64,000 nt of DNA, taken from positions 613,921 through 677,920 of the forward strand of contig NZ_KI912267.1 of NCBI RefSeq assembly GCF_000235425.2, read 5' to 3'. Shown one piece after another: positions 1-52,122 of this stretch (positions within the stretch are counted from its first letter, which is position 1; each line of letters opens with the position of its first letter). The stretch is from Pseudofrankia saprophytica. Its GTDB lineage: Bacteria > Actinomycetota > Actinomycetes > Frankiales > Frankiaceae. A program made the translations under genes and the position numbers. Below the pieces are notes generated by a model, which was given only the letters and a program-made list of their open reading frames with translations, searched no databases and was not told where the DNA came from.

Positions 1-210
1 CGAGTCGAAGAGGAGGTTTTTAGGCTTCAGTTCCACCCCAGCAAGATCCCGGCGAGCATTTGGTGTTTTAATAACGTAAAAGCGGGTCTATTCTCGACAG
101 GGCCAGAAAATGGACAGCCTCTAGAGGTCGACACCTCCGGATATGTAGAACATGCGCTTTGTGAGCCAGTCGAGCGAGGGAACATCTCTGGCATTTCGTG
201 GAGGTTTTGA
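1..210 (+). CDS. C-terminal end of an unknown protein, 5' part outside window
   Basis: Frame 1 is open from the first base to a TGA at 208-210 and encodes 69 residues with a normal mixed composition (for example FHPSKIPASIWCFNNV and SGYVEHALCEPVERG). No start codon is needed because the gene enters from outside the window. The DNA is clearly AT-richer than the bulk of the window and codon third positions are not GC-biased, which suggests recent acquisition. No family is recognised. The opposite strand is also open here but its translation looks like a shadow. Confidence 0.5.
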   Translation, partial: RVEEEVFRLQFHPSKIPASIWCFNNVKAGLFSTGPENGQPLEVDTSGYVEHALCEPVERGNISGISWRF

Positions 211-298
211 TATAATCTGAAAATTAAAGAGGATCTCAAAATGGGTGACGTAAACTAATAAGTTGAAGATCGGAGAGGCTAGCTAAGCCTCCCCCACA

Positions 299-329
299 GC
301 TCGACGGTAGCCTTCGGAAACGGTCGAGC
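299..329 (+). terminator. Possible terminator hairpin between converging genes
   Basis: A 7-bp stem (GCTCGAC at 299-305 with GTCGAGC at 323-329) encloses a 17-nt loop, and a run of five T follows at about 351-355. A second small hairpin (GAGGCT/AGCCTC, 275-291) lies just upstream. The site sits between the end of the gene at 1-210 and the stop of the convergent gene at 342, where a terminator is expected. The rest of 211-341 holds only a five-codon ATG reading frame at 241 preceded by AGAGGA, whose meaning is unclear. Confidence 0.35.
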
Positions 330-341
330 GGTTGGGGTGTC

Positions 342-1472
342 TTATTGCAATTTTTCGGATTTCTCTAGCTCCCACGCCAGAACCACCCCTGACCGTGGCA
401 ACACCCACCCGTCGAACTCGGCCCGGATCGCCTGCTCCGGCACCGACTCCGGCGCCTCGCTGATGCGGGCGTGGTTGCTACTGGCGAAGAAGTCGAGGAG
501 CCGCACGTCCCGAACATCCGCGTCGCGGTAGTCCAGCTGGACCGTTAGCCCTCTGGTGGGCTTTTCCACATCAATTTTGATCAGTCTTCCGTCCTGGCGT
601 ACCAACGTCCGGTAGGTGTAAGAGATCACCACCGGCTCACCCGCCTCAACGGCGGCCTTGCCGACGGAGACGCTGTAGGTCTGGCTCCCGTCGCGGGAGC
701 TACGGCGGATGCGCCGCTCCTGGCCATCCACCGTGAACTGGACCAGCTCGAAGGCTTCCGGGGAGCCGCCGTCGAGATCGTCCACGGCCCGGAACCACCA
801 GGCCGAGGTTGGCCCGGCCTCCTGGCTCAGGTCCCGGTACTCCTGACGGTCGGAGACGCAGACGAAGCGGCGCATGGAGCTGGCCGGGATAGTCGTGTAC
901 TCCCACCGGGCAGTCAGGGCGAACATCGGAGTGCGGGTAGCGGCAGAGGCACTCCCTCCGGGAGTGCCTCTAACCATGGTTAGAGGCGACAGCGTGAGCT
1001 CCACCCGGGCGTCGTGCCACCGCTCCGTGGCGGCGATGGCCTGGTCCCGGATGTCGTCGTACAGCTCGCGGGCGAAGGTGGCGTCGCCGAGACGCAGCGC
1101 CAGGCTGTTGCGCAAAATCTCGTCCAGCATCTCGGGCGTGGCCACCCGCGCCAGGTCTGCTTGATCGAAGGCGAACCCGCGGATGACGGCATCCCGCAGA
1201 GCGGGCGCTTCCTCCGTGATGACCTGCCGTAGTTGCTCTGTCTGGAGGCGGCCCGCCTGCTTCCGCTGAAAGTAGTCCAGGCCGATCCCGAGCAGGCCGA
1301 AGGAAAACAGGATGCCGCCGATCTCGCTCACGGGGAAGAATGAGAGCCAGGCGAGCTTCGGAAAAAGATGCAAGTTCTTGGCGAGCACCAGCAACCCGAC
1401 CCCGAGCACGGCAACCACGAGGCCGATGAAGGCGGTTTGGAGCTTGTCATAGTCTTCGTGCAAGTTTGCCAT
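342..1472 (-). CDS. Membrane-anchored protein of unknown function, 376 aa
   Basis: The protein starts at an ATG (1472) and has two hydrophobic helices near the N-terminus, roughly residues 14-35 and 40-68. The remaining 300 residues look soluble: a helical, Q/E/R-rich stretch after the membrane hairpin, then a beta-rich region. This topology suits a membrane-anchored sensor or assembly protein with a cytoplasmic body, but no named family is recognised. It is transcribed away from the small XRE regulator gene at 1730. The 257-bp divergent region between them carries strong hairpins and a dyad-rich site, so the regulator could control this gene (inference). Confidence 0.7.
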   Translation of the reverse strand: MANLHEDYDKLQTAFIGLVVAVLGVGLLVLAKNLHLFPKLAWLSFFPVSEIGGILFSFGLLGIGLDYFQRKQAGRLQTEQLRQVITEEAPALRDAVIRGFAFDQADLARVATPEMLDEILRNSLALRLGDATFARELYDDIRDQAIAATERWHDARVELTLSPLTMVRGTPGGSASAATRTPMFALTARWEYTTIPASSMRRFVCVSDRQEYRDLSQEAGPTSAWWFRAVDDLDGGSPEAFELVQFTVDGQERRIRRSSRDGSQTYSVSVGKAAVEAGEPVVISYTYRTLVRQDGRLIKIDVEKPTRGLTVQLDYRDADVRDVRLLDFFASSNHARISEAPESVPEQAIRAEFDGWVLPRSGVVLAWELEKSEKLQ

Positions 1473-1534
1473 GGTGTTTCGCGATTATTGTAACACTTTG
1501 TGATCACTGGCGGCGAGTACCTCGGGCGCAGCAC

Positions 1535-1598
1535 AAAGCTCCGGAGCCTCGGCCATATGCCGATAACCTCCGGAGCTTTGCGGGGGCGCTTGCCCCCG
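1535..1598. repeat. Two adjacent strong hairpins in a divergent intergenic region
   Basis: A perfect 12-bp inverted repeat (AAAGCTCCGGAG at 1535-1546, CTCCGGAGCTTT at 1568-1579) contains an inner five-pair stem (TCGGC/GCCGA). A second 7-bp stem with a GCTT loop (CGGGGGC/GCCCCCG) follows at 1581-1598. No T-run follows either one, and no gene ends here, because both neighbours start on either side (1472 minus, 1730 plus). They may be operators, a structured leader or insulators. The remainder of 1473-1729 contains the dyad site listed next. Confidence 0.5.
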
Positions 1599-1676
1599 GT
1601 GCATCAGCTACCCTCGCCGCCGGTCATGTTCCCACCTCCTTTCTTCTCGCGGGATTTGTCTGACAGGCCCGATGCT

Positions 1677-1702
1677 ACTCATAAGTCTGTAGACCTACAA
1701 GT
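1677..1702. promoter_or_regulatory. Dyad-rich site resembling a controller-protein (C-box) operator
   Basis: Overlapping dyads sit about 30 bp before the XRE gene: ACT-N4-AGT at 1677-1686, GTCT-GT-AGAC at 1685-1694 and TGTAG-AC-CTACA at 1688-1699. The layout (AGTC, a TGTA spacer, then GAC) recalls C-boxes bound by small restriction-modification controller proteins. The downstream gene encodes an XRE protein of the right size. The match is partial and the spacing is not canonical, so self-regulation of 1730-1945 from this site is inference. Confidence 0.3.
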
Positions 1703-1729
1703 AGCAGGCCGGGCACCGTCAGGTCTGTC

Positions 1730-1945
1730 ATGGAGGGCGACCTGCAGCGCATCGTGGGGCGCAATCTGCGCCGCTACCGCGAGGGACGCGGCCTCAGCCA
1801 GGAAGCCTTCGCCGATGTCGTCGGCGTCCACCGCACTTACATGGGCGGCCTTGAGCGCGGCGAGCGCAACCTGACGCTGCGGTCCCTGGAACGGCTGGCG
1901 GCCGCCCTCCACGTTGATCCGTTGGACCTGCTCAAGGAGTCATAG
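1730..1945 (+). CDS. Small XRE-family helix-turn-helix regulator, controller-like
   Basis: A 71-residue single-domain HTH_3/XRE protein. Residues 8-65 form the five-helix Cro/C1 fold. The recognition region reads LSQEAFADVVGVHRTYMGGLERG (about residues 22-44), followed by NLTLRSLERLAAALHVDPL, the usual last helices. Size and composition match controller proteins of restriction-modification systems, and the RTYMGGLERGERN stretch is close to that group. No ligand-binding or dimerisation extension is present. A dyad-rich candidate operator lies directly upstream. The closest possible target is the divergent membrane-protein gene. No adjacent modification methylase was found, so a true R-M controller role is unproven. 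Confidence 0.9.
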   Translation: MEGDLQRIVGRNLRRYREGRGLSQEAFADVVGVHRTYMGGLERGERNLTLRSLERLAAALHVDPLDLLKES

Positions 1946-2297
1946 CGGCCGTAGGGCCAGCCTCTCCCGGCTCACAGATGGGAAAGGCCGGATCTTCCAC
2001 CGGCTCACAGCCACCGATCTTGGTGAAAATCGTCCAGGCGATCAGCTCGCAGGTGCCCTGCCCAATCCGTCGCGTAATCCGCTGGGATCGGTCCTCGACT
2101 TCGAGCGGGAGAACGGCGTCCGGCTTCTCGGCCGCCAGATGCGCCCAGGCATGGGCCTCGCTCCAGTCGGTGAAGGTGGCAAGCTGCTCCCCGTAGCCGT
2201 TCAGGACGGCGTAGGGCCGGATGCGTCGGACTGGTTCCGGCCGGACGCTCGCCGCTGTTCCCTCCCGGCCAGCTTCGCCAGCTGCGTCTCGATCCAC
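1932..2297 (-). CDS. Small conserved hypothetical protein, 121 aa
   Basis: The first recognisable conserved stretch is RPYAVLNGYGEQLATFTDWS followed by EAHAWAHLAAEKPDAVLP and EDRSQRITRRIGQGTCELI. Together these look like a small cytoplasmic alpha/beta domain typical of actinobacterial accessory regions. The start used is a GTG at 2297. It overlaps the upstream gene by about 97 bp, and the true start may lie closer to residue 25, since the first residues are low-complexity. The 3' end overlaps the convergent XRE gene by 14 bp. No function is known. Confidence 0.55.
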   Translation of the reverse strand: MDRDAAGEAGREGTAASVRPEPVRRIRPYAVLNGYGEQLATFTDWSEAHAWAHLAAEKPDAVLPLEVEDRSQRITRRIGQGTCELIAWTIFTKIGGCEPVEDPAFPICEPGEAGPTAAMTP

Positions 2298-2455
2298 CGG
2301 GCCTCCTCGGTGACGGTTTCAGTCCGCTCCAGCAGCGCGGCGTATTCCAGTGGTTCCGCTGGCAGCCGGTCCTGGTGCCGGACCAGATTGACTTCCAACT
2401 CCTCCATCTGCGCCACCACGACCCGGCACTCCATCTGGAGGAGGCGTAAGGGCAA
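2201..2455 (-). CDS. Small coiled-coil hypothetical protein, about 84 aa
   Basis: The C-terminal 80 residues are charged and helix-forming: QMECRVVVAQMEELEVNLVR, then a segment with EYAALLERTETVTEEARWIE, which predicts a helical hairpin or coiled coil. A TTG at 2455 preceded by GGAGC is used as start; an ATG at 2434 is an alternative. The open frame continues further upstream, but that part is Pro/Gly/Arg-rich and looks non-coding. It overlaps the following gene on the same strand, which suggests coupled translation. No family is recognised. Confidence 0.4.
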   Translation of the reverse strand: MPLRLLQMECRVVVAQMEELEVNLVRHQDRLPAEPLEYAALLERTETVTEEARWIETQLAKLAGREQRRASGRNQSDASGPTPS

Positions 2456-2759
2456 GTTGTCGTGCTCCGGTGGCTCTCCCGGACAGGCCCCGCTGATCCA
2501 GCCACCCACTGCCTGCCTCCTGCCATTCGCCTTCGCCCCGTGTGGCGGGCACCCGGGGCCGGGCGGATATGCCAGGCGACGGTTTCTCGCACCCGGCCCC
2601 GGGGCCTGGCCGGACACTCGCGCACCCACCCGGCCCGGCCAAGACGTTCCGGGAATGTGGATCATGCGCCGGACGTATGGGGGAATCGCCACCACGTACC
2701 GTGATGGTTAGACTGCGGAACCGGCCGGATGATCTGGTCTCGCGCGAAATGGGGGCGCC

Positions 2760-4154
2760 ATGGTGGACGAGGGCGAACCCTCCCGCCGGTACTGCCGCTG
2801 CGGCACGCGCTTGGCCCGCGATAACTCCGGCTCCCAATGCGCCGCTTGCGCCCGCCAGGCCCGGGAGCTGGTGGCTGCGGCTCCGGAAGTTCCCGCCCAG
2901 TTCTGGGAGACGGACCAGCTGCGGGACGCCCTCGCGGCTTGGCACATGGGCCGGGTGATCACCGCTTACCGCACCCACCCCTTCCACAGCCCGCCCCTGT
3001 CCCAGGAGATCGTGGCGGGCTGGATGGGCCTGACCCAGGCCCAGCTGTCCCGCATCGAGTCCGGCGAACCCGTCACCGATCTGGTGCGGCTCATCCGCTG
3101 GGCGCGGGCCCTGCGCATCCCCGAAGCGTTGCTGTGGTTCAAGCTGCCGCCACAGCCAGGGGGCGTCACGCTCGCCGGTCCCGTAGACCAGTTGGAGCAG
3201 CTGCGCCGCCAGGCCGAGGGCCACCTCACCACCGGCGCACCGGCCGCGGCCACGCTCGATGACTGGGAGCAGCTCGTTGCCGGGCACGGGCGGGCGACGC
3301 GGTACCTGCCCGCCGCCGTGCAGCTGGACGACTTGGCCGCCGACTTCGCCGAAGTGCAACACGCCTTGTCAACCCGCCAGCCGTCCAGCACGACGAGGCA
3401 ACTCACCCGCATCACGGCGCAGTTGGCCGGGCTCATCAGCTTGTCGCTCATCAAGATGGGACAGCGCGGCCCCGCCCGGGCCTGGGGCCGGACGGCACGG
3501 TTGGCCGCCGGGGAAGCCGGAGATCCGGCGGTGGCGTCGTGGGTTCGGGCCCAGGACGCTTACACCTATTACTACGGCGGCTCCGTGCCTGAGGCCATCG
3601 CGGCGGCGAAGGAAGCCCAGGCCCTTGCGGGCCAAACGCCCTGCGTGGGGGCTGTATTGGCCGCCGCGCTCCAGGCCCGCGCCCATGCAGTCCTCGGGCA
3701 GCAAGCCGAAACCGACGCGGCCCTGCGCCGGGCCGAAGCCATCCTGAGCAGCCTGGCTACAGAAGACGTGACGGAGTCCGCCTTCGGCTACAACGAAGCC
3801 CAACTCCGCTTCCACGAGGGCAACGCCCTGACCCATCTCCACGACCGAAGCCGGGTCTGGGAGGCCACCGATCGGGCCTTGACCCTGTACCCGGCCAGCG
3901 ACTACATGGACCGCACCCTCATCCAGTTGGACCGGGCCGATTGCCTCATCCATGACGGCGAGGTCGCCGAAGGGGCCGCCCGCGTCGCGCGGACCCTTCT
4001 GGAACTGCCACCGGGGCGGCGGGACGGGCTCATCCTCCAGCGGGCTCGGGGCCTGGCCCAGGCCACCGCCCGCCATCACCGGACGCTGCCTGCTGTCCGG
4101 CAGTTGTACGAAGTGCTCGAACTGCCTGCCGGATCTGTCGGAGGCGGGGCCTAA
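2760..4154 (+). CDS. XRE-family regulator with Cys-rich head and TPR-like sensor domain
   Basis: 464 residues starting at an ATG behind a GGGGGC ribosome site. The N-terminus has a CxC...CxxC cluster (residues about 12-30; YCRCGTRLA and CAACARQ) that may bind zinc. An HTH follows at about residues 80-125 (SQEIVAGWMGLTQAQLSRIE). The C-terminal 300 residues are Ala/Leu/Arg-rich helical repeats, as in the TPR sensor half of many actinobacterial XRE regulators. That architecture usually senses a peptide or partner protein (family knowledge). A GNAT gene starts 11 bp after its stop, so the two form an operon. Confidence 0.8.
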   Translation: MVDEGEPSRRYCRCGTRLARDNSGSQCAACARQARELVAAAPEVPAQFWETDQLRDALAAWHMGRVITAYRTHPFHSPPLSQEIVAGWMGLTQAQLSRIESGEPVTDLVRLIRWARALRIPEALLWFKLPPQPGGVTLAGPVDQLEQLRRQAEGHLTTGAPAAATLDDWEQLVAGHGRATRYLPAAVQLDDLAADFAEVQHALSTRQPSSTTRQLTRITAQLAGLISLSLIKMGQRGPARAWGRTARLAAGEAGDPAVASWVRAQDAYTYYYGGSVPEAIAAAKEAQALAGQTPCVGAVLAAALQARAHAVLGQQAETDAALRRAEAILSSLATEDVTESAFGYNEAQLRFHEGNALTHLHDRSRVWEATDRALTLYPASDYMDRTLIQLDRADCLIHDGEVAEGAARVARTLLELPPGRRDGLILQRARGLAQATARHHRTLPAVRQLYEVLELPAGSVGGGA

Positions 4155-4164
4155 ACTCTCGCGG

Positions 4165-4647
4165 GTGACGATTTCGGTACAGCCTGCCAGCCAGGACGAC
4201 GCCGAAGACCTGGCCGCCCTCATGGCCGAGCTGGACTCCTTCTACGGCGCGCCGCCCACCGAGCAGCCTGCCGAGCGTCTCGCCCAGATCCGGCGGCTTC
4301 TCTTCGGCCCGGTCCCTGTGGCCTACGTCTTGCTGGCCCGGGACAAGGGCCGACTGGTCGGCATGGCTTCGTACTCCTACTTGTGGCCTGCTGCCGGAGT
4401 CACTCACTCGCTGTTTCTCAAGGAGCTGTACGTGTCCGCGGACGCCCGGAGGCACGGTGTGGGGCGGCTGCTCATGGAGCGGCTTCAGGCCATGGCCACC
4501 GAGCAGGGGTGCAGCCGGTTCGAGTGGACGACCGATCTGGAAAACACGGCAGCGCAGGCATTCTATGACGCCTTGGGTACTCGGGTGCATGAGGGCAAGG
4601 TGTTTTACCGGGTTGAGGGCGGCACGGCCACATCCATTAACACTTGA
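4165..4647 (+). CDS. GNAT family N-acetyltransferase
   Basis: A 160-residue single-domain acetyltransferase. The acetyl-CoA-binding motif A is LKELYVSADARRHGVGRLLM, with the RxxGxG/A loop RRHGVG, at about residues 92-111. Motif B follows (FEWTTDLENTAAQAFYDALG), where the conserved N and the YxxxG pattern are present. The GTG at 4165 gives a start matching the family N-terminus (IRPAxxxDaxxL-like, here ISVQPASQDDAEDLAALM). The frame remains open upstream but that part is a shadow of the XRE gene. The substrate is unknown; co-transcription with the XRE-TPR gene suggests a conditional role such as detoxification or protein acetylation. Confidence 0.85.
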   Translation: MTISVQPASQDDAEDLAALMAELDSFYGAPPTEQPAERLAQIRRLLFGPVPVAYVLLARDKGRLVGMASYSYLWPAAGVTHSLFLKELYVSADARRHGVGRLLMERLQAMATEQGCSRFEWTTDLENTAAQAFYDALGTRVHEGKVFYRVEGGTATSINT

Positions 4648-4654
4648 CCTTAGC

Positions 4655-7600
4655 CTAGTCCGAGTCAGCCCAAAATCGCGCTTGCCTGTCCTCTTGCTGA
4701 GCCTGTCGTTCGTAGTCTTCCGAAATATTTTGTAGGATACGAGCCGTCCGAGGCCAGTTAATCTTCGCCAAAGACGCCCATTCGCGGTAGCGGCTCGCGA
4801 GGACTCGCTCCTGTTCACCTCCGTCGTAAACCCCACGTGTAGTGACGCCTCTGTCATTCATCACCCCGATATGCAGTCCGTTCTGCATGGATGGGCTACC
4901 GATTACCTCCAGAAGTTCCCGGACAGGTTCGGCAGGCCAGATACCATCAGCGCCAGCTGGACTCGCCGCAAGGACTTCGCCTATCTGTTCGTCGCCCACG
5001 TCAGCCCGATCAGCCTCTGCAAGCGCGAGCCGAGCCTCGCGCACCCAGCGGTTGAGGTGTTCCGCATCAACCGTATCGTCATCACGGCGCCCCGGGAGAT
5101 TACGCCAGTTCTTAATGATCCACCATGCATGACGAGCAATCGCCTCATCGTGCTCGCTAAGCTGGCGTCGCACCTCATTTCTTCCACGGTAGATTCTAGA
5201 AATAAGGTCGACGAAAAAACTCGGGTCGCCGTCAAGCGCCTTAAACAAAGCTCGTGGTTCCCGTTGATCTTCAAGAAATCGAAAGAGCGCGAACTCGTAT
5301 CGCATTCGCAATTGAAATTCGACATTCTCTCTTTCCAAGTAGTCAAGAAGACGTCCAACTTCGTATGCAAGCGACGACGGCTGAGTACCCGCTGGATCGG
5401 TAACTATCGCCTTGTCGAGTACTGCGGCCACAAGCGCTGGCGAACAGAACGATTCCCCCTCTCCCCCTAGAACTCCGGGACTTGCTATCAACTGTACAGC
5501 GGCCCAAGCTCGCCCGTGGCTAAGAAGTTCTCGTGCCGCACGGTCAATGTCGACGGCCGAAATAAATCTCGCCGACGTATTTTTCCAGTACGTATTTATG
5601 AGCTCTGGATCGATGTCGTTCAGCGCGTCCCAATATTCAGGACGAGCGGGCACACTTAGAGCAATTGCCTCTCGCCGAGCAGGATGGGCGGCCTCCGGAC
5701 GCCGAAGCGTCTCATGAAGCCATCGGATACCGTGGTCCGATAGCTTACGTTCGGCCCAAGCCGCCGCAGTGTTCCTGATTCTTAGATTCTCGGAATCGAG
5801 CCAAGAAAGAAGTGCCGGCGTGAGATTTTCAGAAACTACAGCTCCGACAACCCATCCTAGTTGGCCTGATGCAATGCTCTTCTCCGCCAACCGTTGCAGA
5901 CCATCAATCGACCCTTCGGCGAGTATCTCGGTCACAGCTTGCGTCCGCAATCTGAGGACTTCTGCGGCATATTCTTCGTGATTCATAAGATCAATCTCAG
6001 GCAAATCCGGATGCCACTCGAAAAGATAAGCATACCGCTGCGCATTCGTCGTGGGCTTAAGTCGTTCGGCGACTATTTCCAAACGGGCAAGACTGTCGCC
6101 ATCCATCGCCCACGCCGCAGTCCGGAACGCGCGATTCCGGCTGACCTCCTTGTAGATTGGTTCCCACAATAGAAGGCGCTGATCCGAGTCCAGTTCCGCA
6201 ATCTCGCTGAAGAGGTCGAGCCCATCGATCAGTCGCTTTCGCTCTGCTGGAGGAAGTGGTCCTAGACGAACCCCCAGGTCGGCCCACCGTTGCGGATCAG
6301 TGTCAGCTGAGTCGATGGCGATCCGCACGAGTCTTCCGATGTAGTCAATCCACTCCGGGATGAGGACCGCAGCTTCGTCGGGTTTCCAGTCATGGAACCG
6401 TGGATCATGCGGTGGATGCGAGATGGCGTGACTGCTCGGCCACACGCCGAGAATCACCTTCCAACCCACATCAGGTAGCCGGCGCCGCAGATAATCGATT
6501 ATGCCTATCTTCGTTTCGACGGGGGCGGCCGTGTTGTGAACCCAGCCGGCAAGTACTTCTTGCAGGCTTGTGAGGGGCCTGTTCGACAGGCGTCCACCGG
6601 GATCGACAGTGTGGAGGCGCGCGAGCATGTACGACGCCTCGGCGACAAGATCTTTGGACCAACATAGAGTTTCAAGTGCCCACAATAGTCCAGTATGCGA
6701 CGAAGATCCGTAGGCGCCAGACCCTTGATCATTGTCCTGAAACATAAGGGTGAGAATCGGTTCAGGGCGAGAAAGGTCCTCGTCGACAGCTTCCAAGAAG
6801 CAGTTTGGAGCAGCCTCCGCAAGCAATGGCAGTACGTCTGCCAGCGACCGCCATACATGCGCCGTGGTATCGGTGTTGGCACGCCTGAGAACTTTTTGTA
6901 CCAAGCGTCGCGCTTGGTCGGATCCGCTCACTCCGTCGCCGAGTAGTTCATTTCCCAGAGAGCTAAGCAGGGCGGCACCTTGCGCTAGTCCCTTTCGGAG
7001 AACGGCTGAAGTAGATCCGTCTATCCCCTCGGAGCCCCCTGAGATTAGTTCGGCGTGATCAAATGTCGGGTCGGCAGACAGGAGGACTGCTCCAGCAATC
7101 CGGTGCCAGCGGTCAAGGTCCGCCAACCTCAGACTGTCGTGGAGGACCAGGAAAGCCTCTTCCGCCGAGGTGAGATGCCACTTACCACCTGAACGAACGA
7201 ACGGCGGATCATCTGTCTTGAGTCCTTGCAGCAGTACTGCCTCCACGTCGTCCCACGGAACATCCGCGAGAAGGCTAATTATCTTCTTATCTTCAGGAAT
7301 GTCGCTCCACGCGCCTGCTAGCACGAGCGGCGCTATGATCGCGGCGGCCGGGGAGCGTGCCCACGAGGGGCGCAATACTCTCGGGTCACGGGCCAGGGTG
7401 CGCATCAGTGCCGGGAGGCTGCGGCGGGCCAAAGCAGCCAGTCGATCGGCGCGGTCGTCAGGTATCCCCGACGCCTTCAGCGAGTTGGCGGCGCCTCTTC
7501 GTTCGGGTGGAGGAAGGATGATCGCTGAGGCTCGTACGATTTCATCCGGACCGGCAGGCAGGATGATGTGGTGGCTGCGAGCGGAAAAAATTTCAGGATC

Positions 7601-46370: not shown

Positions 46371-47900
46371 GTGGCGGGATCGACTCCACCCCCGGTGTCC
46401 GGGAACGCCCCGGCCCCACTGAGCGCAGCCGACCCTCGGCGACTGGGCAAGTACGAGATCATCGGCCGCCTGGGGCAGGGCGGCATGGGAACCGTCTTCC
46501 TCGGCCGCTCCCCCGAGGGTACTCCTGTCGCCATCAAGGTGATCAAACCGGAGCTGGCCGAGGCGCCGGAGTTCCGTGGCCGGTTCCGGCGCGAGGCGGA
46601 GAGCGCCCGCCGGGTCCGGCGGTTCACGACCGCAGCCGTGCTCGACGCCGACCCCGACGGGCCGAACCCCTACCTGGTGACGGAGTACGTCGAGGGCCCG
46701 ACGCTGTCGAAGATGGTCGCCCGGCGCGGACCGCTGCGCCCGGCCGACCTGGAACAGCTGGCGCTGTCGGTCGCCACCGCGCTCTCGGCCATCCACGCCG
46801 CCGGCATCGTGCACCGTGACCTGACGCCGGCGAACGTGCTGCTCTCCCCCGTCGGCCCGAAGGTGATCGACTTCGGCCTCGCCCGGGACTTCGACGGGTC
46901 GGGCGAGTTCAGCCGCACCGCGCGGCACGCGATCGGTACCCCCGGCTACATGGCGCCCGAGCAGATCCTGGACTCCCCGGTGACCTCCGCGGCGGACATC
47001 TTCGCCTGGGGCGCCATCACGATCTTCGCCGCCACCGGCCGGCCGCCGTTCGGCGAGGGCCGGATCGAGGCGTTGCTCTACCGGATCCTCTACGAGCCCG
47101 CCAACATCGACGGTGTTCCCGCCGAGCTCGCGCCGCTCGTCGACGCCGCCCTGCAGAAGGAGCCGGACCGGCGGCCGACGGCCGAGGCGCTGCGCGCCGC
47201 GCTGATGAGCGGCGGCGATCTCGTGCCGGGCATCGCGGCGCTGGGTACCGGGCCGGCCGCCGGCCAGGCGCCCGCGCCGGGCCAGGAGGCGGACCGGGAC
47301 GCCAAGGAGGGCTCACGGCGCCGCCGCGGCCATCTGTTCGGCCGTGGCGGCCGCGGGCTGGGAGCCGAGGACGCGCCCGTCACCGCCACGCCGGGAACGA
47401 CATCACGGCCGGGGCCGACCAGCGTCGCGACCGGCCTGCTCACTCCGCCGCCGACCCAGACCCCACCCCCGACACCGGCGACCACGTCCAGGCCGCCGGC
47501 GACCACGTCCCGGGCGCCGTCGGCCCCCGGCACCGCCACGCCTCGTCCGCCGGCGACGCCATCCTCGCCGCTGCCCGCACCGCCGGGAGGAGCTCGTCCG
47601 GGCGCCGGGCCGGCCGCCCGGTCGGGTGGCCCCGTCGGCACTCCGTCGCGCGGCCCCGGCGCTGCGCCGTCCCGTCCACCCGTCCCACCCGTGCCGGGTG
47701 GACCGCCGCCGGCGTCGCGTGCCCCCTCCCGCCGGCGCCCGTCGCCAGCCGGGGGCCAGCGGTCGGCTCGGGTGACCGGCCCCCGCCTACGGTCAGCCGG
47801 CAGGCGCCGCCGACGCCGCCGTTCGCGGGCCCGAGCGGGGCAGGCCAGCCCGATCCGGGCCATGACGGCGCCGAGCGGCGCTCCGGCCGGCGCAAGGTGA
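46371..47900 (+). CDS. Ser/Thr protein kinase (kinase half of a kinase-WD40 gene)
   Basis: 509 residues from GTG 46371 (GGAGG upstream). Complete Hanks kinase domain at about 25-285: GQGGMG loop (35-40), catalytic Lys56 in VAIK, HRD at 148-150 (HRDLTPANVLL), DFG at 167-169, and GTPGYMAPE at 189-197. A Pro/Thr-rich linker follows. The last 60 residues in this frame turn into an Arg-rich run ending RAMTAPSGAPAGAR, while the +2 frame of the same DNA reads like a natural Pro-rich juxtamembrane linker continuing into the next gene. A one-base loss near the C-run around 47722-47726 would explain this. If real, the kinase lacks its membrane anchor and sensor. Confidence 0.85.
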   Translation: MAGSTPPPVSGNAPAPLSAADPRRLGKYEIIGRLGQGGMGTVFLGRSPEGTPVAIKVIKPELAEAPEFRGRFRREAESARRVRRFTTAAVLDADPDGPNPYLVTEYVEGPTLSKMVARRGPLRPADLEQLALSVATALSAIHAAGIVHRDLTPANVLLSPVGPKVIDFGLARDFDGSGEFSRTARHAIGTPGYMAPEQILDSPVTSAADIFAWGAITIFAATGRPPFGEGRIEALLYRILYEPANIDGVPAELAPLVDAALQKEPDRRPTAEALRAALMSGGDLVPGIAALGTGPAAGQAPAPGQEADRDAKEGSRRRRGHLFGRGGRGLGAEDAPVTATPGTTSRPGPTSVATGLLTPPPTQTPPPTPATTSRPPATTSRAPSAPGTATPRPPATPSSPLPAPPGGARPGAGPAARSGGPVGTPSRGPGAAPSRPPVPPVPGGPPPASRAPSRRRPSPAGGQRSARVTGPRLRSAGRRRRRRRSRARAGQASPIRAMTAPSGAPAGAR

Positions 47901-49222
47901 TCCTGGTCATCGCGGGGCTCGCCGTGCTCGCCGTCGCCGCCGTCGGCATCCCGCTGGCGATCGCAAACGGGTCCGGCGGTGACGGCGGCGGTGGCTCCGG
48001 CTCCGCGGCGCATCGAGCCGAGCTCTCCACCGGTCTCGCCCAGCAGGCCGCGGCCGCGCGAGCGAGCGACCCGGCCAGGGCCGCGCGGCTCAGCCTCGCC
48101 GCCTACCGGCTCTCGCCGACCGAGGCGGCCGCGAAGGCGATGGTCGCCTCGTTCACGGCCGGTTCCTGGGTCACCCTGCCGGGCCCCGCCGCGACCTACA
48201 CCGGCGACGCGCTCTCGGCCGACGGCAGGCTCGCCGCCGCGACCGACAACGCCGGCCACCTGCGGCTGTGGGACCTGTCGAACCCGGACAGCCCCGCGCC
48301 GGCCGCCGACGTCGCGACGTCGAGCGGTGGTGCCGACGCCGGGCCGACCATCCTCGGCCCGCGGTTCCTGCCCGCCGGTGGCCTGGTCACCGGCGGCGGC
48401 ACCGGCCACGTCTGGGACCTGGGCGACCCGCGCGCACCCAAGCCGCTCGCCCCGATCACCTCACCGTCGGGCCAGGTCGGCCAGGTGGCACGGCTGGCGC
48501 TCTCGGGCGACGGCAAGCTGCTGGCGACGGCGGACCTGAACCAGGCGATCGACCTGTGGGACGTGAGCGACCCGGCCAACCCGCGCTTCCTGCGACCGTT
48601 GCGGAGCACGGGCCTGACGACCGACATCGCGCTCAGCCCCGATGGGCACACCCTGGCGATCGCGGGGGTGGACGGCACGGTTAGCCTGCTGGACATCAGC
48701 GATCCGCGGAACCCGGCCGAGCGCGGCCACACGGCGGGACTGGTAGGCCAGGTGAACGCCGTGGCGTTCCTGCCGGATGGCAGGCGCCTGGTCACCGGGA
48801 ACGACGACGCGACCGTGCGGCTGTGGGACATCACCGACCTGGCGAAGCCGAAGCAGGTGGGTCAGGAGTGGCGCGGTCACCAGTCCGGCGTCCTCGACGT
48901 CGTGCCGGTCGGGGGGACGTGGCTCGTGAGCACCGACGCGGGCGGCACCCTGCTCGGCTGGGACCTCGGCGCCGGGTCGGTCACTCCCACGCCCGTGTCG
49001 CTCGACAGCCAGGTGACCCCCCGCGACGTGGCCGCCGACGACGCAGGCAAGTGGCTGCTCAGCGCGCCGACCAGCGCCTCGGCCGGCGGGGTGACCCTCG
49101 GCTCGACCGACCCGGCCCGGCTCGTGACGGTCGCCTGCAAGAACCCGGCGAACCGGATCAGCGCCACCGAATGGACGAACCTCATCGCCGACCTGCCCTA
49201 CGAGGACCCGTGCTCGGGCTGA
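47897..49222 (+). CDS. Membrane-anchored WD40 sensor domain (probable C-terminal half of the kinase)
   Basis: Begins at a GTG overlapping the kinase stop (GTGA) and gives 441 residues. The start is a membrane helix (ILVIAGLAVLAVAAVGIPLA). About 100 residues later come six or so WD40 blades, seen as repeats ending DNAGHLRLWDL, GTGHVWDL, LNQAIDLWDV, DATVRLWDI and GTLLGWDL. The beta-propeller should lie outside the cell. In relatives this propeller is fused to the kinase in one polypeptide. In-frame codons before the GTG (47762-47896) read as a continuous linker without stops, so this frame begins well before the GTG. Translational coupling as two proteins is the alternative. Confidence 0.8.
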   Translation: MILVIAGLAVLAVAAVGIPLAIANGSGGDGGGGSGSAAHRAELSTGLAQQAAAARASDPARAARLSLAAYRLSPTEAAAKAMVASFTAGSWVTLPGPAATYTGDALSADGRLAAATDNAGHLRLWDLSNPDSPAPAADVATSSGGADAGPTILGPRFLPAGGLVTGGGTGHVWDLGDPRAPKPLAPITSPSGQVGQVARLALSGDGKLLATADLNQAIDLWDVSDPANPRFLRPLRSTGLTTDIALSPDGHTLAIAGVDGTVSLLDISDPRNPAERGHTAGLVGQVNAVAFLPDGRRLVTGNDDATVRLWDITDLAKPKQVGQEWRGHQSGVLDVVPVGGTWLVSTDAGGTLLGWDLGAGSVTPTPVSLDSQVTPRDVAADDAGKWLLSAPTSASAGGVTLGSTDPARLVTVACKNPANRISATEWTNLIADLPYEDPCSG

Positions 49223-49463: not shown

Positions 49464-52016
49464 ATGGGCTACCAGCTCGGCATCGACATCGGCACAGCCA
49501 ACACCGTCGTCGCCATTTCGGACGGCGACTGGCCGCAGGTCCTCACGGTCGCGGGCGGCCCGTCCATACCGACGGTGCTCTATTTCCCGCCGACCGGCCC
49601 GCTCTCGTTCGGCCGGGCCGCCGCGCGGCGCGCGCTGGCCGATCCGGCTCGTGCGACGGAAGGATTCGCGCGCCGCGTCGGCGACTCCTCCCCGATCATG
49701 ATCGGCGGCGGCGCATACGCGCCGGAAGGACTCGTCACCCGTTTCCTGGAACGGGTGATCATCGCGGCGGCGGAGACACGCGGCTCGAATCCCGACCACG
49801 TCGTCGTCACGTATCCGACCAGCTGGAACGCGCGGCGCCGAGAGCTGTTCACCGAGGCGCTGGAACGGCTCGACGCGCGCGACATCCCGGTGTCCGCCGC
49901 GCCGGCGGCCGATGCGCTGGGCGCCGTGCTGGCGCGCCGCGCCGCGAGCAGGACCCGCGGCCGGTCCACCGACCTGGTCGCGACCTACGACTTCGGCGCG
50001 GGCACGTGCGAGGCGGCGGTGCTGTCGGTCACCGACTACGGCGCCGAGGTCGTGGGCTCGCCGACGGGGCTCGCGCACACGGGCGGCGTCGACCTGGACA
50101 CGCTCCTGCTCGAGCATGTGCTGTCCGCCGCCGGCCCGGTCGTGGCGGGGCTGGACCGGTCCGACCCGGCGACGGTCACCGCGCTCAGCCGGCTGCGCCA
50201 GGAGGTCGTCGCCGCCAAGGAGACGCTGGCCGCCGACGACGAGGCCTCCGTCCCGGTGACCCTGCCCGGCGTGTTCGCCTGGGTGACGCTGCGCCGCGAG
50301 GACCTGGAGCGTCTGGTCACGCCGGCGATCGAGGACAGCGTGCGGGCGCTGGTCCGCACGGTGCGCTCGGTGCCGGCGTCCGCGGACCAGCTGTCCGCGG
50401 TGCTGCTCTACGGTGGCGTCGCACGGATGCCGCTGGCCGACCGGCTGGTGCGGGCCGCGCTGCCCGGCGCCGGGCGTTTCGAGCACCGGCCGGCCGAGGA
50501 CCTCGCGGTCGGGGCGGCGCTGCTGGCCGCCGGGCTCGCCGAGCAGGCGGAGCCGGTCGCCGGCGGCGCGACGGCGCTGATCGGCCCGGCGTCGATGGAG
50601 CCGCCGGAGCTGTCGTCGTTCCCCGGGATGTCGATGCCGCCGGCGGGCACGACCTACGTGGCGCCGGGAGCCGTCGCGGCGGCGGCCGGCGGCGGCTGGC
50701 AGGACCCGGAATCGACGGCGCGCATCGCCGCCTACGAAGCCTTCCCCGCGGCCACCGCCGCGGGCGTGGGCGCGGCCGGCGTGGGCGCGGCCGGAGCGGC
50801 GGCGGCCGGGGCCGGGCATCCGGAGCAGCACGGCCTCGTCTCCTGGGGCACCGGGCCGGACACGGGCGAGCGCACGGTCGTGCACGGCGGGGCCGGCCGG
50901 CCCCCAGGCGGACCTGCTCCCCAGCGGTCGGCGGGCCCGCCGCCGCGCCGCTCGGGTGTGCTGGGCTCGCTGCGCACCAAGAGCGGGATCGCGGCCATCA
51001 TCGCGGCGGTGGTCTTCATCGCCGGCGGCACCGCGCTCGGGCTCACGCTGACCCGGTCCGACAGCTCCGGCCCGACGATCACCGCCGCGCCGTCGAGCCA
51101 GCCGGCGACCCAGCCGGCCACGGGGGCCGCGACGACGCCTCCGGCCGTGGCCCGCAACCTGGTCCGGGTGGCCGACTCGAACGAGGTCGCGCCGATCAGC
51201 GAGCGCGCGTTCCAGGAGTTCCGCCAGTCCGAGCCCAAGGTGACGGTCGCCTTCGATCCGGGGGTCACCGACACCACCCAGGCCTTCACCAAGCTGTGCA
51301 ACGGCGAGGTCGCTGTCGCCGGCACGTCCTACGAGCTGGACCCGAAGTTCGCGCCGGACCCGAGCTGCAAGGACGAGGTGGTCGGGTTCGAGATCGCGCA
51401 CCACACCCTGCCGATCGTGGTGAACCCCGCCAACACCTGGCTGGGCTGCCTGGACCTGGCCAAGCTCAAGGAGCTCTGGGGCGCGGGCTCCACCATCACC
51501 CGGTGGAACCAGCTCAACCCGAGGTACCCGGACGAGCCGATCAACTTCGTCGGGCCCAAGCCCGACAGTGTGCAGGCGCAGGTGTTCAACGCCAGCATCA
51601 GCGGTGACAGCGCCAAGTCCCGGCCCTACACGACGACGGACCTGGCCGGCGTCGCGCAGACCGTACAGAACGACCGGGACGCCATCGGCTACCTCGACTT
51701 CCCGACGTACAACCAGCTGGGCTCCAAGCTGCGCGGGGTGCTCGTCGACGGCGGGGAGGGCGAGGGGTGCCAGCCGCCGAACGCCATCACCGCCGGCAGC
51801 GGCGCCTACGTGCCACTGTGCAAGCCGCTGTTCGTCTACGCCCGCGTCGACGCGCTGAAGGACCCGGCCACCGTCGCCTACCTGCGCTACTACCTGGAGC
51901 ACGCGCAGACCATCACGACCGAGACCGGCTACGTCGGGCGTTCCAACGCCACCACCAAGTCCAACATCGACCGCCTGAGTCAGCTGTCCCAGGGAGTAGG
52001 CCCGATACCCGCCTAA
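49464..52016 (+). CDS. Fusion: Hsp70-type ATPase, membrane helix, PstS-like extracellular binding domain
   Basis: 850 residues. Residues 1-365 are an Hsp70/actin-fold ATPase: phosphate-1 DIGTANT (8-14), phosphate-2 YDFGAGT (175-181), and adenosine motif LLYGGVARMP (315-324). There is no Hsp70 substrate-binding domain. A flexible Gly/Ala/Pro linker (365-505) leads to one membrane helix (AAIIAAVVFIAGGTALGLTL). Residues 565-848 are a PstS-like phosphate/solute-binding domain (VRVADSNEVAPISERAFQEF; LCNGEVAVAGTSYEL; FVYARVDALKDPATVAYLRY) with five Cys. The ATPase should be inside and the binding domain outside. The start is ATG 49464. A strong terminator follows. No pstCAB genes are adjacent. Confidence 0.88.
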   Translation: MGYQLGIDIGTANTVVAISDGDWPQVLTVAGGPSIPTVLYFPPTGPLSFGRAAARRALADPARATEGFARRVGDSSPIMIGGGAYAPEGLVTRFLERVIIAAAETRGSNPDHVVVTYPTSWNARRRELFTEALERLDARDIPVSAAPAADALGAVLARRAASRTRGRSTDLVATYDFGAGTCEAAVLSVTDYGAEVVGSPTGLAHTGGVDLDTLLLEHVLSAAGPVVAGLDRSDPATVTALSRLRQEVVAAKETLAADDEASVPVTLPGVFAWVTLRREDLERLVTPAIEDSVRALVRTVRSVPASADQLSAVLLYGGVARMPLADRLVRAALPGAGRFEHRPAEDLAVGAALLAAGLAEQAEPVAGGATALIGPASMEPPELSSFPGMSMPPAGTTYVAPGAVAAAAGGGWQDPESTARIAAYEAFPAATAAGVGAAGVGAAGAAAAGAGHPEQHGLVSWGTGPDTGERTVVHGGAGRPPGGPAPQRSAGPPPRRSGVLGSLRTKSGIAAIIAAVVFIAGGTALGLTLTRSDSSGPTITAAPSSQPATQPATGAATTPPAVARNLVRVADSNEVAPISERAFQEFRQSEPKVTVAFDPGVTDTTQAFTKLCNGEVAVAGTSYELDPKFAPDPSCKDEVVGFEIAHHTLPIVVNPANTWLGCLDLAKLKELWGAGSTITRWNQLNPRYPDEPINFVGPKPDSVQAQVFNASISGDSAKSRPYTTTDLAGVAQTVQNDRDAIGYLDFPTYNQLGSKLRGVLVDGGEGEGCQPPNAITAGSGAYVPLCKPLFVYARVDALKDPATVAYLRYYLEHAQTITTETGYVGRSNATTKSNIDRLSQLSQGVGPIPA

Positions 52017-52033
52017 GACGGGCGTCGCACCCC

Positions 52034-52077
52034 GGCGGCGGAATCCTGTCTCACCCCGGTGAGAGGATTCCGCCGCC
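52034..52077 (+). terminator. Very strong terminator
   Basis: A perfect 14-bp stem (GGCGGCGGAATCCT / AGGATTCCGCCGCC) with a further inner CTCACC/GGTGAG stem sits 18 bases after the stop of the fusion gene. Confidence 0.9.
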
Positions 52078-52122
52078 GCCCTGTTTTCGGACCCGTGTCG
52101 CGAGCGGAGGGAAGACGAGCCA

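Follow-up and report, generated by a model that had tools for sequence, protein, structure and literature searches.

The 64,000-nucleotide stretch of Pseudofrankia saprophytica DNA considered here (contig NZ_KI912267.1, positions 613,921 to 677,920; hereafter the window) encodes a single protein in which an Hsp70-type nucleotide-binding domain (NBD) is joined through a predicted membrane helix to a PstS-fold domain, both folds being identified by model and by sequence. The preferred reading, to which a probability of about 0.4 is given, is that of a solute receptor in the envelope, with an Hsp70-fold part that would not hydrolyse ATP but would offer the neighbouring kinase a docking platform. 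The gene and its parts are the following (pLDDT, predicted local distance difference test):

49464..52016, + strand: Hsp70-PstS fusion gene, 850 amino acids, ATG start, stop codon counted in, no internal stop
49464..50558, + strand: Hsp70-type NBD without substrate-binding domain, residues 1-365
50559..50987, + strand: linker, Pro/Ala/Gly-rich and predicted disordered, residues 366-508, pLDDT below 50, weaker constraint
50988..51056, + strand: predicted single membrane helix, residues 509-531, by hydropathy (helix 509-521 in the model)
51156..52013, + strand: PstS-fold domain, predicted extracytoplasmic, residues 565-850

Architecture of the fusion protein

The Pfam family HSP70 was identified at residues 5-359 (E 1.1e-26) and covers profile positions 2-376 of 599 only, so the peptide-binding part of Hsp70 is missing; it is replaced by a predicted disordered stretch of 143 residues followed by the predicted membrane helix. 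The Pfam family PBP_like_2 was identified at residues 561-809 (E 9.7e-12). By sequence, the closest solved chains are DnaK and 4jwo, the latter being a possible phosphate-binding protein. A periplasmic-binding fold was found for the C-terminal part, and the two-lobed fold of PstS was matched over residues 565-850, the closest solved folds being PstS-type proteins. The earlier note on this DNA, made from the sequence alone, had described one protein with an Hsp70 NBD, no peptide-binding domain, one membrane helix and a full-length domain resembling phosphate-binding proteins, and this description is borne out by the open frame and by the Pfam and fold matches.

The hydrophobic segment (residues 509-527) is directly preceded by an Arg and a Lys, and the hydropathy peak of the interdomain segment is 2.41 in the window protein and 2.2-2.8 in all 32 fused rows from the fetched loci. 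In the membrane topology that we infer, the Hsp70 part lies inside the cell and the PstS part outside. An outer, oxidising location fits the PstS domain because it holds five Cys, invariant in 28/28 aligned proteins, versus one Cys only in the Hsp70 part of the window protein.

The scan for promoters and terminators returned nothing above chance. An inverted repeat, GGCGGAATCC ... GGATTCCGCC, was seen by eye directly 3' of the stop codon (window 52030-52090) and is absent from the list of the terminator scan.

The Hsp70-type part

The motifs of the Hsp70-type part and the two segments containing replaced positions are the following:

49485..49505, + strand: phosphate-1 loop DIGTANT, residues 8-14, Asp8 and Thr11 retained
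49665..49685, + strand: FARRVGD, residues 68-74, Ala69 at the position of DnaK Lys70
49893..49913, + strand: SAAPAAD, residues 144-150, Ala146 at the position of DnaK Glu171
49986..50006, + strand: phosphate-2 loop YDFGAGT, residues 175-181, Asp176 and Thr181 retained in the window protein
50403..50432, + strand: adenosine motif LLYGGVARMP, residues 314-323

In DnaK the side chains of Thr11 and Lys70 are described as contacting the gamma-phosphate and Glu171 as holding Lys70, and replacement of Thr11 or Lys70 as disabling the allosteric cycle of Hsp70/DnaK (PMC12406271). DnaK with the change K70A is given as an inactive form in mycobacteria (PMC4109909), and Thr199 as essential to hydrolysis (PMC13012618). 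The three motifs named in the earlier note (DIGTANT, YDFGAGT and LLYGGVARMP) are all present, but the positions of Lys70 and Glu171 are both Ala in the window protein.

The same positions were compared in 31 fusion rows, a set that excludes two short ones: G032, which runs into the end of its contig, and the G018 row of L065, with a partial NBD. The Lys70 position (69) is occupied by Leu in 20, Val in 7, Pro in 2, Ala in 1 and Met in 1, and by Lys in none; Glu is likewise absent from the Glu171 position (146) in all 31. Thr was identified at the Thr199 position (181) in only two rows, one of them the window protein, the others having mostly Phe, His or Trp. The Thr11 position (11) is more varied, with Ser in 19, Thr in 6, Val in 4 and Ala in 2. 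Other residues are largely retained: Asp8 and Asp194 in 27 rows each, the adenine-site Lys in 26 and Gly196 in all 31. The relatives without a PstS part comprise 29 proteins (a set of 33 minus P0028-P0030 and P0033, which are Frankiaceae pieces or fusions; the label Pseudonoc in the set of 33 also covers L022, a metagenome-assembled genome of the Actinomycetota) and contain Lys70 in 24, Glu171 in 29 and Thr199 in 27. Since some of these relatives also lose Lys70, the PstS-fused lineage is set apart by the joint loss, above all that of Glu171. The kinase-side copies of three genomes (G001, G011 and G012) carry in addition Asp8 to Ser and Asp194 to Gln, a further step in the same direction.

From these residues the Hsp70 part looks like a pseudo-ATPase, of which poor turnover would be expected. 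Nucleotide binding without hydrolysis is possible, because the Asp of the phosphate-1 loop and that of the phosphate-2 loop are each kept in 27/31. The nucleotide-driven switch of Hsp70 type that the earlier note had put forward is not supported, given the loss of the Lys70 and Glu171 equivalents in 31/31 fusions and of Thr199 in 29/31, even if the window protein itself retains the Thr.

The PstS-fold outer domain

Three segments of the outer domain are needed in what follows:

51177..51194, + strand: SNEVAP, residues 572-577, Glu574 in 32/32 fusions, 0/18 PstS and not in 4jwo
51399..51413, + strand: HHTLP, residues 646-650, His646 in 32/32 fusions, 0/18 PstS and not in 4jwo
51552..51575, + strand: GPKPDSVQ, residues 697-704, at the place of PstS HRSDxSGT, Pro698 and Val703 in 32/32

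The TIGR02136 profile matched the outer domain with an E value of 3.2e-35, but its 121.8 bits are below the cut-off of 206.6. The PstS protein of Escherichia coli holds phosphate through Ser-Gly-Thr, an Arg and an Asp. The corresponding positions were aligned in 32 fusion rows, in 18 canonical PstS of Frankiaceae (17 from fetched regions and the genome's own, L047) and in 4jwo; this alignment and the tree of the Hsp70 part take in one of the two G001 copies, both of which are in the 31-row NBD counts. Ser-Gly-Thr (702-704) is complete in 18/18 PstS and in 4jwo and in 0/32 fusions, which have Ser or Thr, then Val in 32/32, then Gln in 23, His in 8 and Pro in 1. The Arg (698) and Asp (622) of the 18 PstS are Pro and Ser in all 32 fusions; the Arg of 4jwo at 623 is Phe or Tyr in all 32, and where 4jwo has Asp at 647, 29 of the fusions have His. 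All 32 fusions share Glu574, Glu643 and His646, none of which occurs in the 18 PstS or in 4jwo. Three of the five invariant Cys (635, 662 and 769) are common to 4jwo and two (612 and 786) are not.

With the Ser-Gly-Thr loop replaced in 32/32 rows, phosphate is doubtful as a ligand, and the outer domain is unlikely to be an ordinary receptor for phosphate. A canonical PstS is encoded separately in the same genome.

Distribution, origin and constraint

Proteins matching residues 540-850 at E <=1e-3 numbered 27, of which 26, the window protein included, contain both PF00012 and PF12849, and the last is labelled as partial; those of the 27 whose names give an organism are all assigned to Frankia, Parafrankia or Pseudofrankia. 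When 84,980 species genomes were scanned by pattern, 36 loci were returned, where the six full-length matches belonged to these three genera and Pseudonocardia and others presented the Hsp70 part only.

The family was surveyed by a PF12849 search of 35 Frankiaceae genomes; 37 regions were fetched, mostly around matches in long frames, and their frames were tested. The fusion was identified in one open frame in 27 of the 35 genomes and comprises 33 protein rows with that of the window, some genomes carrying it twice; among these rows, one is truncated by the end of its contig and another contains the Hsp70 part incompletely. Four of the 37 fetched regions contain no member of the family. Exceptions among the genomes are G006 and G010, where the contig stops before the Hsp70 part; G013, where the halves are in two frames; and G014, G016 (63% complete), G023, G024 and G027, where the fusion was not found and PF12849 matches were in shorter frames or absent, a region having been fetched for G027 (L067) only. 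Adjacent halves in different frames were identified in G013 (L064) and in the second copy of G005 (L079), possibly by decay or sequencing error.

Candidate free-standing relatives of the outer domain were limited to five matches in a search that sees proteins of about 160-509 residues. One (P0051) is labelled as partial and another (P0054) is on a 5,952-base contig, equal in length to the one that carries the Hsp70 piece P0030; the contigs of the remaining three measure 1,036 to 3,692 bases. The earlier note had allowed for a local artefact, with the two halves always being separate genes in relatives. They are joined, and a local fusion artefact or misassembly is ruled out because the same frame is open in 27/35 genomes.

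In the tree of the Hsp70 part, 30 fusion rows (excluding G032 and the G018 row of L065) form one side of one branch with support 100/100, which is consistent with one fusion event; the midpoint root is for drawing only and the tree carries a long-branch warning. Against P. asymbiotica, the ratio of nonsynonymous to synonymous substitutions (dN/dS, Nei-Gojobori) was lowest in the helix (0.22), followed by the outer domain (0.24) and the Hsp70 part (0.29), and reached 0.46 in each linker. In more distant pairs (L002 and L056) the Hsp70 part had values of 0.30 and 0.32, and the linkers ranged from 0.45 to 0.89. Constraint on the Hsp70 part is therefore seen throughout, whereas on the outer domain it is clear in the close pair and weaker in the distant pairs.

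The architecture was not described in any open-access paper found, subscription papers being mostly outside the coverage of the search. Hsp70 proteins without the peptide-binding domain are described in GTPase-centred systems, a different context (PMC7159879). A substrate-binding domain protein is listed in a Parafrankia exoproteome (PMC11093716) and could not be tied to the fusion gene.

The neighbouring kinase-WD40 gene

Two open reading frames (ORFs) precede the fusion gene in the window:

46419..47900, + strand: Ser/Thr protein kinase, conserved neighbour and likely partner (Pfam Pkinase 7.4e-42; synteny)
47897..49222, + strand: WD40 propeller ORF, hydrophobic segment at its N terminus, in a frame other than that of the kinase in the window

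The earlier note had placed the fusion gene after a kinase-WD40 gene. The neighbourhood is indeed conserved, but in the window the kinase and the membrane-segment-WD40 ORF are separate, overlapping by 4 bases in different frames. Kinase and WD40 are in one open frame at 16 of 19 distinct loci, the exceptions being the window, L072 and L079; the break in the window may be a natural split or a sequencing error.

The WD40 part of such a gene was identified within 3 kb of the fusion in 29 of 37 copies (three duplicate loci removed). Ten of these share the strand of the WD40 part (7 from the genus of the window, the other 3 being second copies), and the 19 from other genera lie on the opposite strand. 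Eight copies are without a near WD40, three of them near a contig end (in L052 the kinase is 245 bases away). A second fusion copy is present on the other side of the kinase in G001, G005 and G012, with its halves in two frames in G005; a second copy so placed is also probable in G011, where the arrangement is divided between two contigs. Since the adjacency survives both inversion and duplication, we infer a shared function.

Such flanking of the kinase-WD40 gene by two Hsp70-PstS paralogues is seen at L068, L079 and L082.

Among the five window proteins scanned with Pfam no ABC transporter, secretion or pilus family was identified, and a role as a transporter component finds no support among them.

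Related Hsp70-helix proteins

At least one predicted helix follows the Hsp70 part in 24 of the 29 relatives without a PstS part, and 22 contain exactly one hydrophobic segment. The window protein thus fits a group, with no named family, of membrane-anchored Hsp70-NBD proteins having one helix and a variable C-terminal outer part. Peripla_BP_6 is joined to the Hsp70-helix part in P0046 and Peripla_BP_4 in P0047; as judged from their domains, other solute-binding families on the same unit would support sensing as a general theme. P0041, from a metagenome, has retained the catalytic residues in its Hsp70 NBD and has in addition one helix (at 511) and a TIGR03931 outer domain, associated with type VII secretion.

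Two more proteins of the same genome were noticed. The first (L038, 2585-5152) comprises 855 amino acids with an Hsp70 NBD and, by eye, WD40-like repeats, with no clear membrane helix; Hsp70 and WD40 modules seem to have been shuffled too. The second (L048, 2891-4510), of 539 amino acids, contains a PBP_like_2 domain; two hydrophobic segments were made out by eye, and it is perhaps another membrane-tethered PstS-fold protein.

Proposed role and alternatives

A small ligand, probably not phosphate, would bind in the outer cleft, and closure of the two outer lobes would be the signal. One helix joins the outer domain to the Hsp70-fold part, a platform that would bind nucleotide without turnover, meet the kinase and pass the signal to it. 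The earlier note had also proposed a transmembrane receptor sensing a solute outside the cell, which is kept in so far as the membrane protein is conserved and its PstS fold is predicted to be outside, whereas the ATP-driven switch is unsupported.

The PstS-fused protein could alternatively be a membrane-anchored assembly scaffold similar to GspL or PilM. Cytoplasmic partners would be brought together by the actin-like part, and the outer PstS fold would be a module for binding protein that holds an envelope component, with no solute sensing. The replaced ATPase residues, the long disordered linker and the replaced Ser-Gly-Thr loop would all suit such a role, which is nevertheless rather unlikely: Glu574, Glu643, His646 and Val703 are invariant in 32/32, which would suggest a kept binding site if they line the cleft, and the window proteins scanned contain no secretion or pilus family. 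A phosphate sensor, with the outer domain binding phosphate or a phosphate ester through other residues and reporting the phosphate supply, is distinctly unlikely. In its favour, the closest solved folds are PstS-type, the TIGR02136 match has an E value of 3.2e-35 and the Arg and Asp of Frankiaceae PstS are missing also from 4jwo, the nearest solved chain; against this, the Ser-Gly-Thr that 4jwo and 18/18 PstS keep is replaced in every fusion, the profile score is below the cut-off and a separate canonical PstS is present in the genome. The least probable reading is that of a solute receptor whose Hsp70-type ATPase is functional, where the outer ligand sets ATP turnover and the ATP/ADP state is the output. 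It can draw on Asp8, Thr11, Asp176, Thr181 and the adenosine motif of the window protein and on the Lys70 of 24/29 relatives without a PstS part, and has to face the absence of the Lys70 and Glu171 equivalents from 31/31 fusion rows and of Thr199 from 29/31, as well as the three kinase-side copies that also lack the equivalents of Asp8 and Asp194.

The receptor with a non-hydrolysing platform has its own difficulties, and the following observations all weigh against it. The residue equivalences come from sequence alignment, for the Hsp70 part to the genome's own DnaK, and not from superposed coordinates; Lys70 is lost in 4 of the 29 relatives without a PstS part, with a gap in a fifth, so its loss is not special to the fusions; and the window protein retains Asp8, Thr11, Asp176 and Thr181, with which weak ATPase activity is possible. 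In the outer domain, 4jwo likewise lacks the Arg and Asp of PstS (it has Ala and Ser), and the differences at 698 and 622 would then tell the subfamily and not the fusion; only the loss of Ser-Gly-Thr and the Phe or Tyr at 623 separate the fusions from 4jwo, itself a 'possible' phosphate binder. The dN/dS of the outer domain rises to 0.56 and 0.45 in the distant pairs (L002 and L056). The proteins with other solute-binding families, P0046 and P0047, are single proteins on short metagenome contigs (4,536 and 2,422 bases) and are without the N-terminal end of Hsp70. There is no shared operon in 19 of the 29 adjacent copies, because the fusion is on the opposite strand to the WD40 gene, and five of the 37 copies have no WD40 gene in the region examined. 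Finally, a disordered linker of 143 residues would fit tethering or clustering better than stiff coupling.

One-protein solute receptors are a known kind, and the putative output domain of this one is unlike that of any described receptor known to us. A wider proposal, tentative and somewhat doubtful, is that of a receptor class with the Hsp70 fold as output, in which at least three solute-binding families (PstS-like, Peripla_BP_6 and Peripla_BP_4) would be connected through one helix and the pseudo-ATPase of Frankiaceae would steer a kinase, comparable to pseudokinase receptors. Hsp70 is known as a soluble chaperone engine; if the receptor reading is true, the fold would have a role in signalling and the fusions would be a natural test of the fold without its engine. 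The protein would also provide a concrete candidate for a component acting upstream of a Ser/Thr kinase in actinobacteria, and the residues named above make the questions of ligand and nucleotide directly testable. The stimulus of such kinases is presented as an outstanding question in PMC6069109.

Comparison with known systems

The fusion shares with the NBD of DnaK and other Hsp70 proteins the fold, the phosphate-1 and phosphate-2 loops and the adenosine motif, and differs from them by the missing substrate-binding domain, the replaced Lys70 and Glu171, and the added membrane helix and outer domain. With PstS proteins (TIGR02136, 4jwo, 4exl) it shares the two-lobed fold and, as in 4jwo, Cys 635, 662 and 769; unlike them, it has the Ser-Gly-Thr loop replaced, a helix and an Hsp70 part joined, and the extra Cys 612 and 786. 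PstS proteins are usually free, soluble or lipid-anchored, beside Pst transporter genes, whereas here the domain is fused in frame and none of the five window proteins belongs to an ABC transporter family.

GlnX is a membrane protein that is not known to have an Hsp70 part. The solute-binding protein GlnH, GlnX and the kinase PknG form a proposed relay of Actinobacteria (PMC6069109), which likewise comprises a solute-binding protein, a membrane protein and a Ser/Thr kinase in a conserved gene neighbourhood, but as three separate proteins and, as given in that source, with Asp, Glu and Asn as ligands. This relay is the closest functional precedent.

GspL resembles the fusion in its actin-like cytoplasmic domain, membrane segment and periplasmic part (PMC6233222, PMC3815138). 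Unlike the fusion, GspL and PilM have a ferredoxin-like outer domain and belong to a secretion machinery context. The actin-like part of PilM is also inside the cell. The Rv3446c-type protein of the type VII secretion system (TIGR03931) is similar in that P0041 has an Hsp70 NBD, one helix and an outer part, and different in its TIGR03931 outer domain and retained catalytic residues. Sensor kinases fused to a solute-binding protein, such as BvgS, are one-protein receptors with a periplasmic-binding fold outside, their output being a histidine kinase and not an Hsp70 fold. Ssz1, of the yeast ribosome-associated complex (RAC), is an Hsp70 homologue thought to be a non-hydrolysing scaffold; it is soluble and eukaryotic and has a substrate-binding part. 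The RAC entry 5mb9 turned up in the structure comparison of the Hsp70 part.

Elsewhere in the window

At window positions 1-6000 the G+C content was 0.62 and 0.59 in two sampled windows versus 0.66-0.77 further on, and this region is perhaps acquired DNA.

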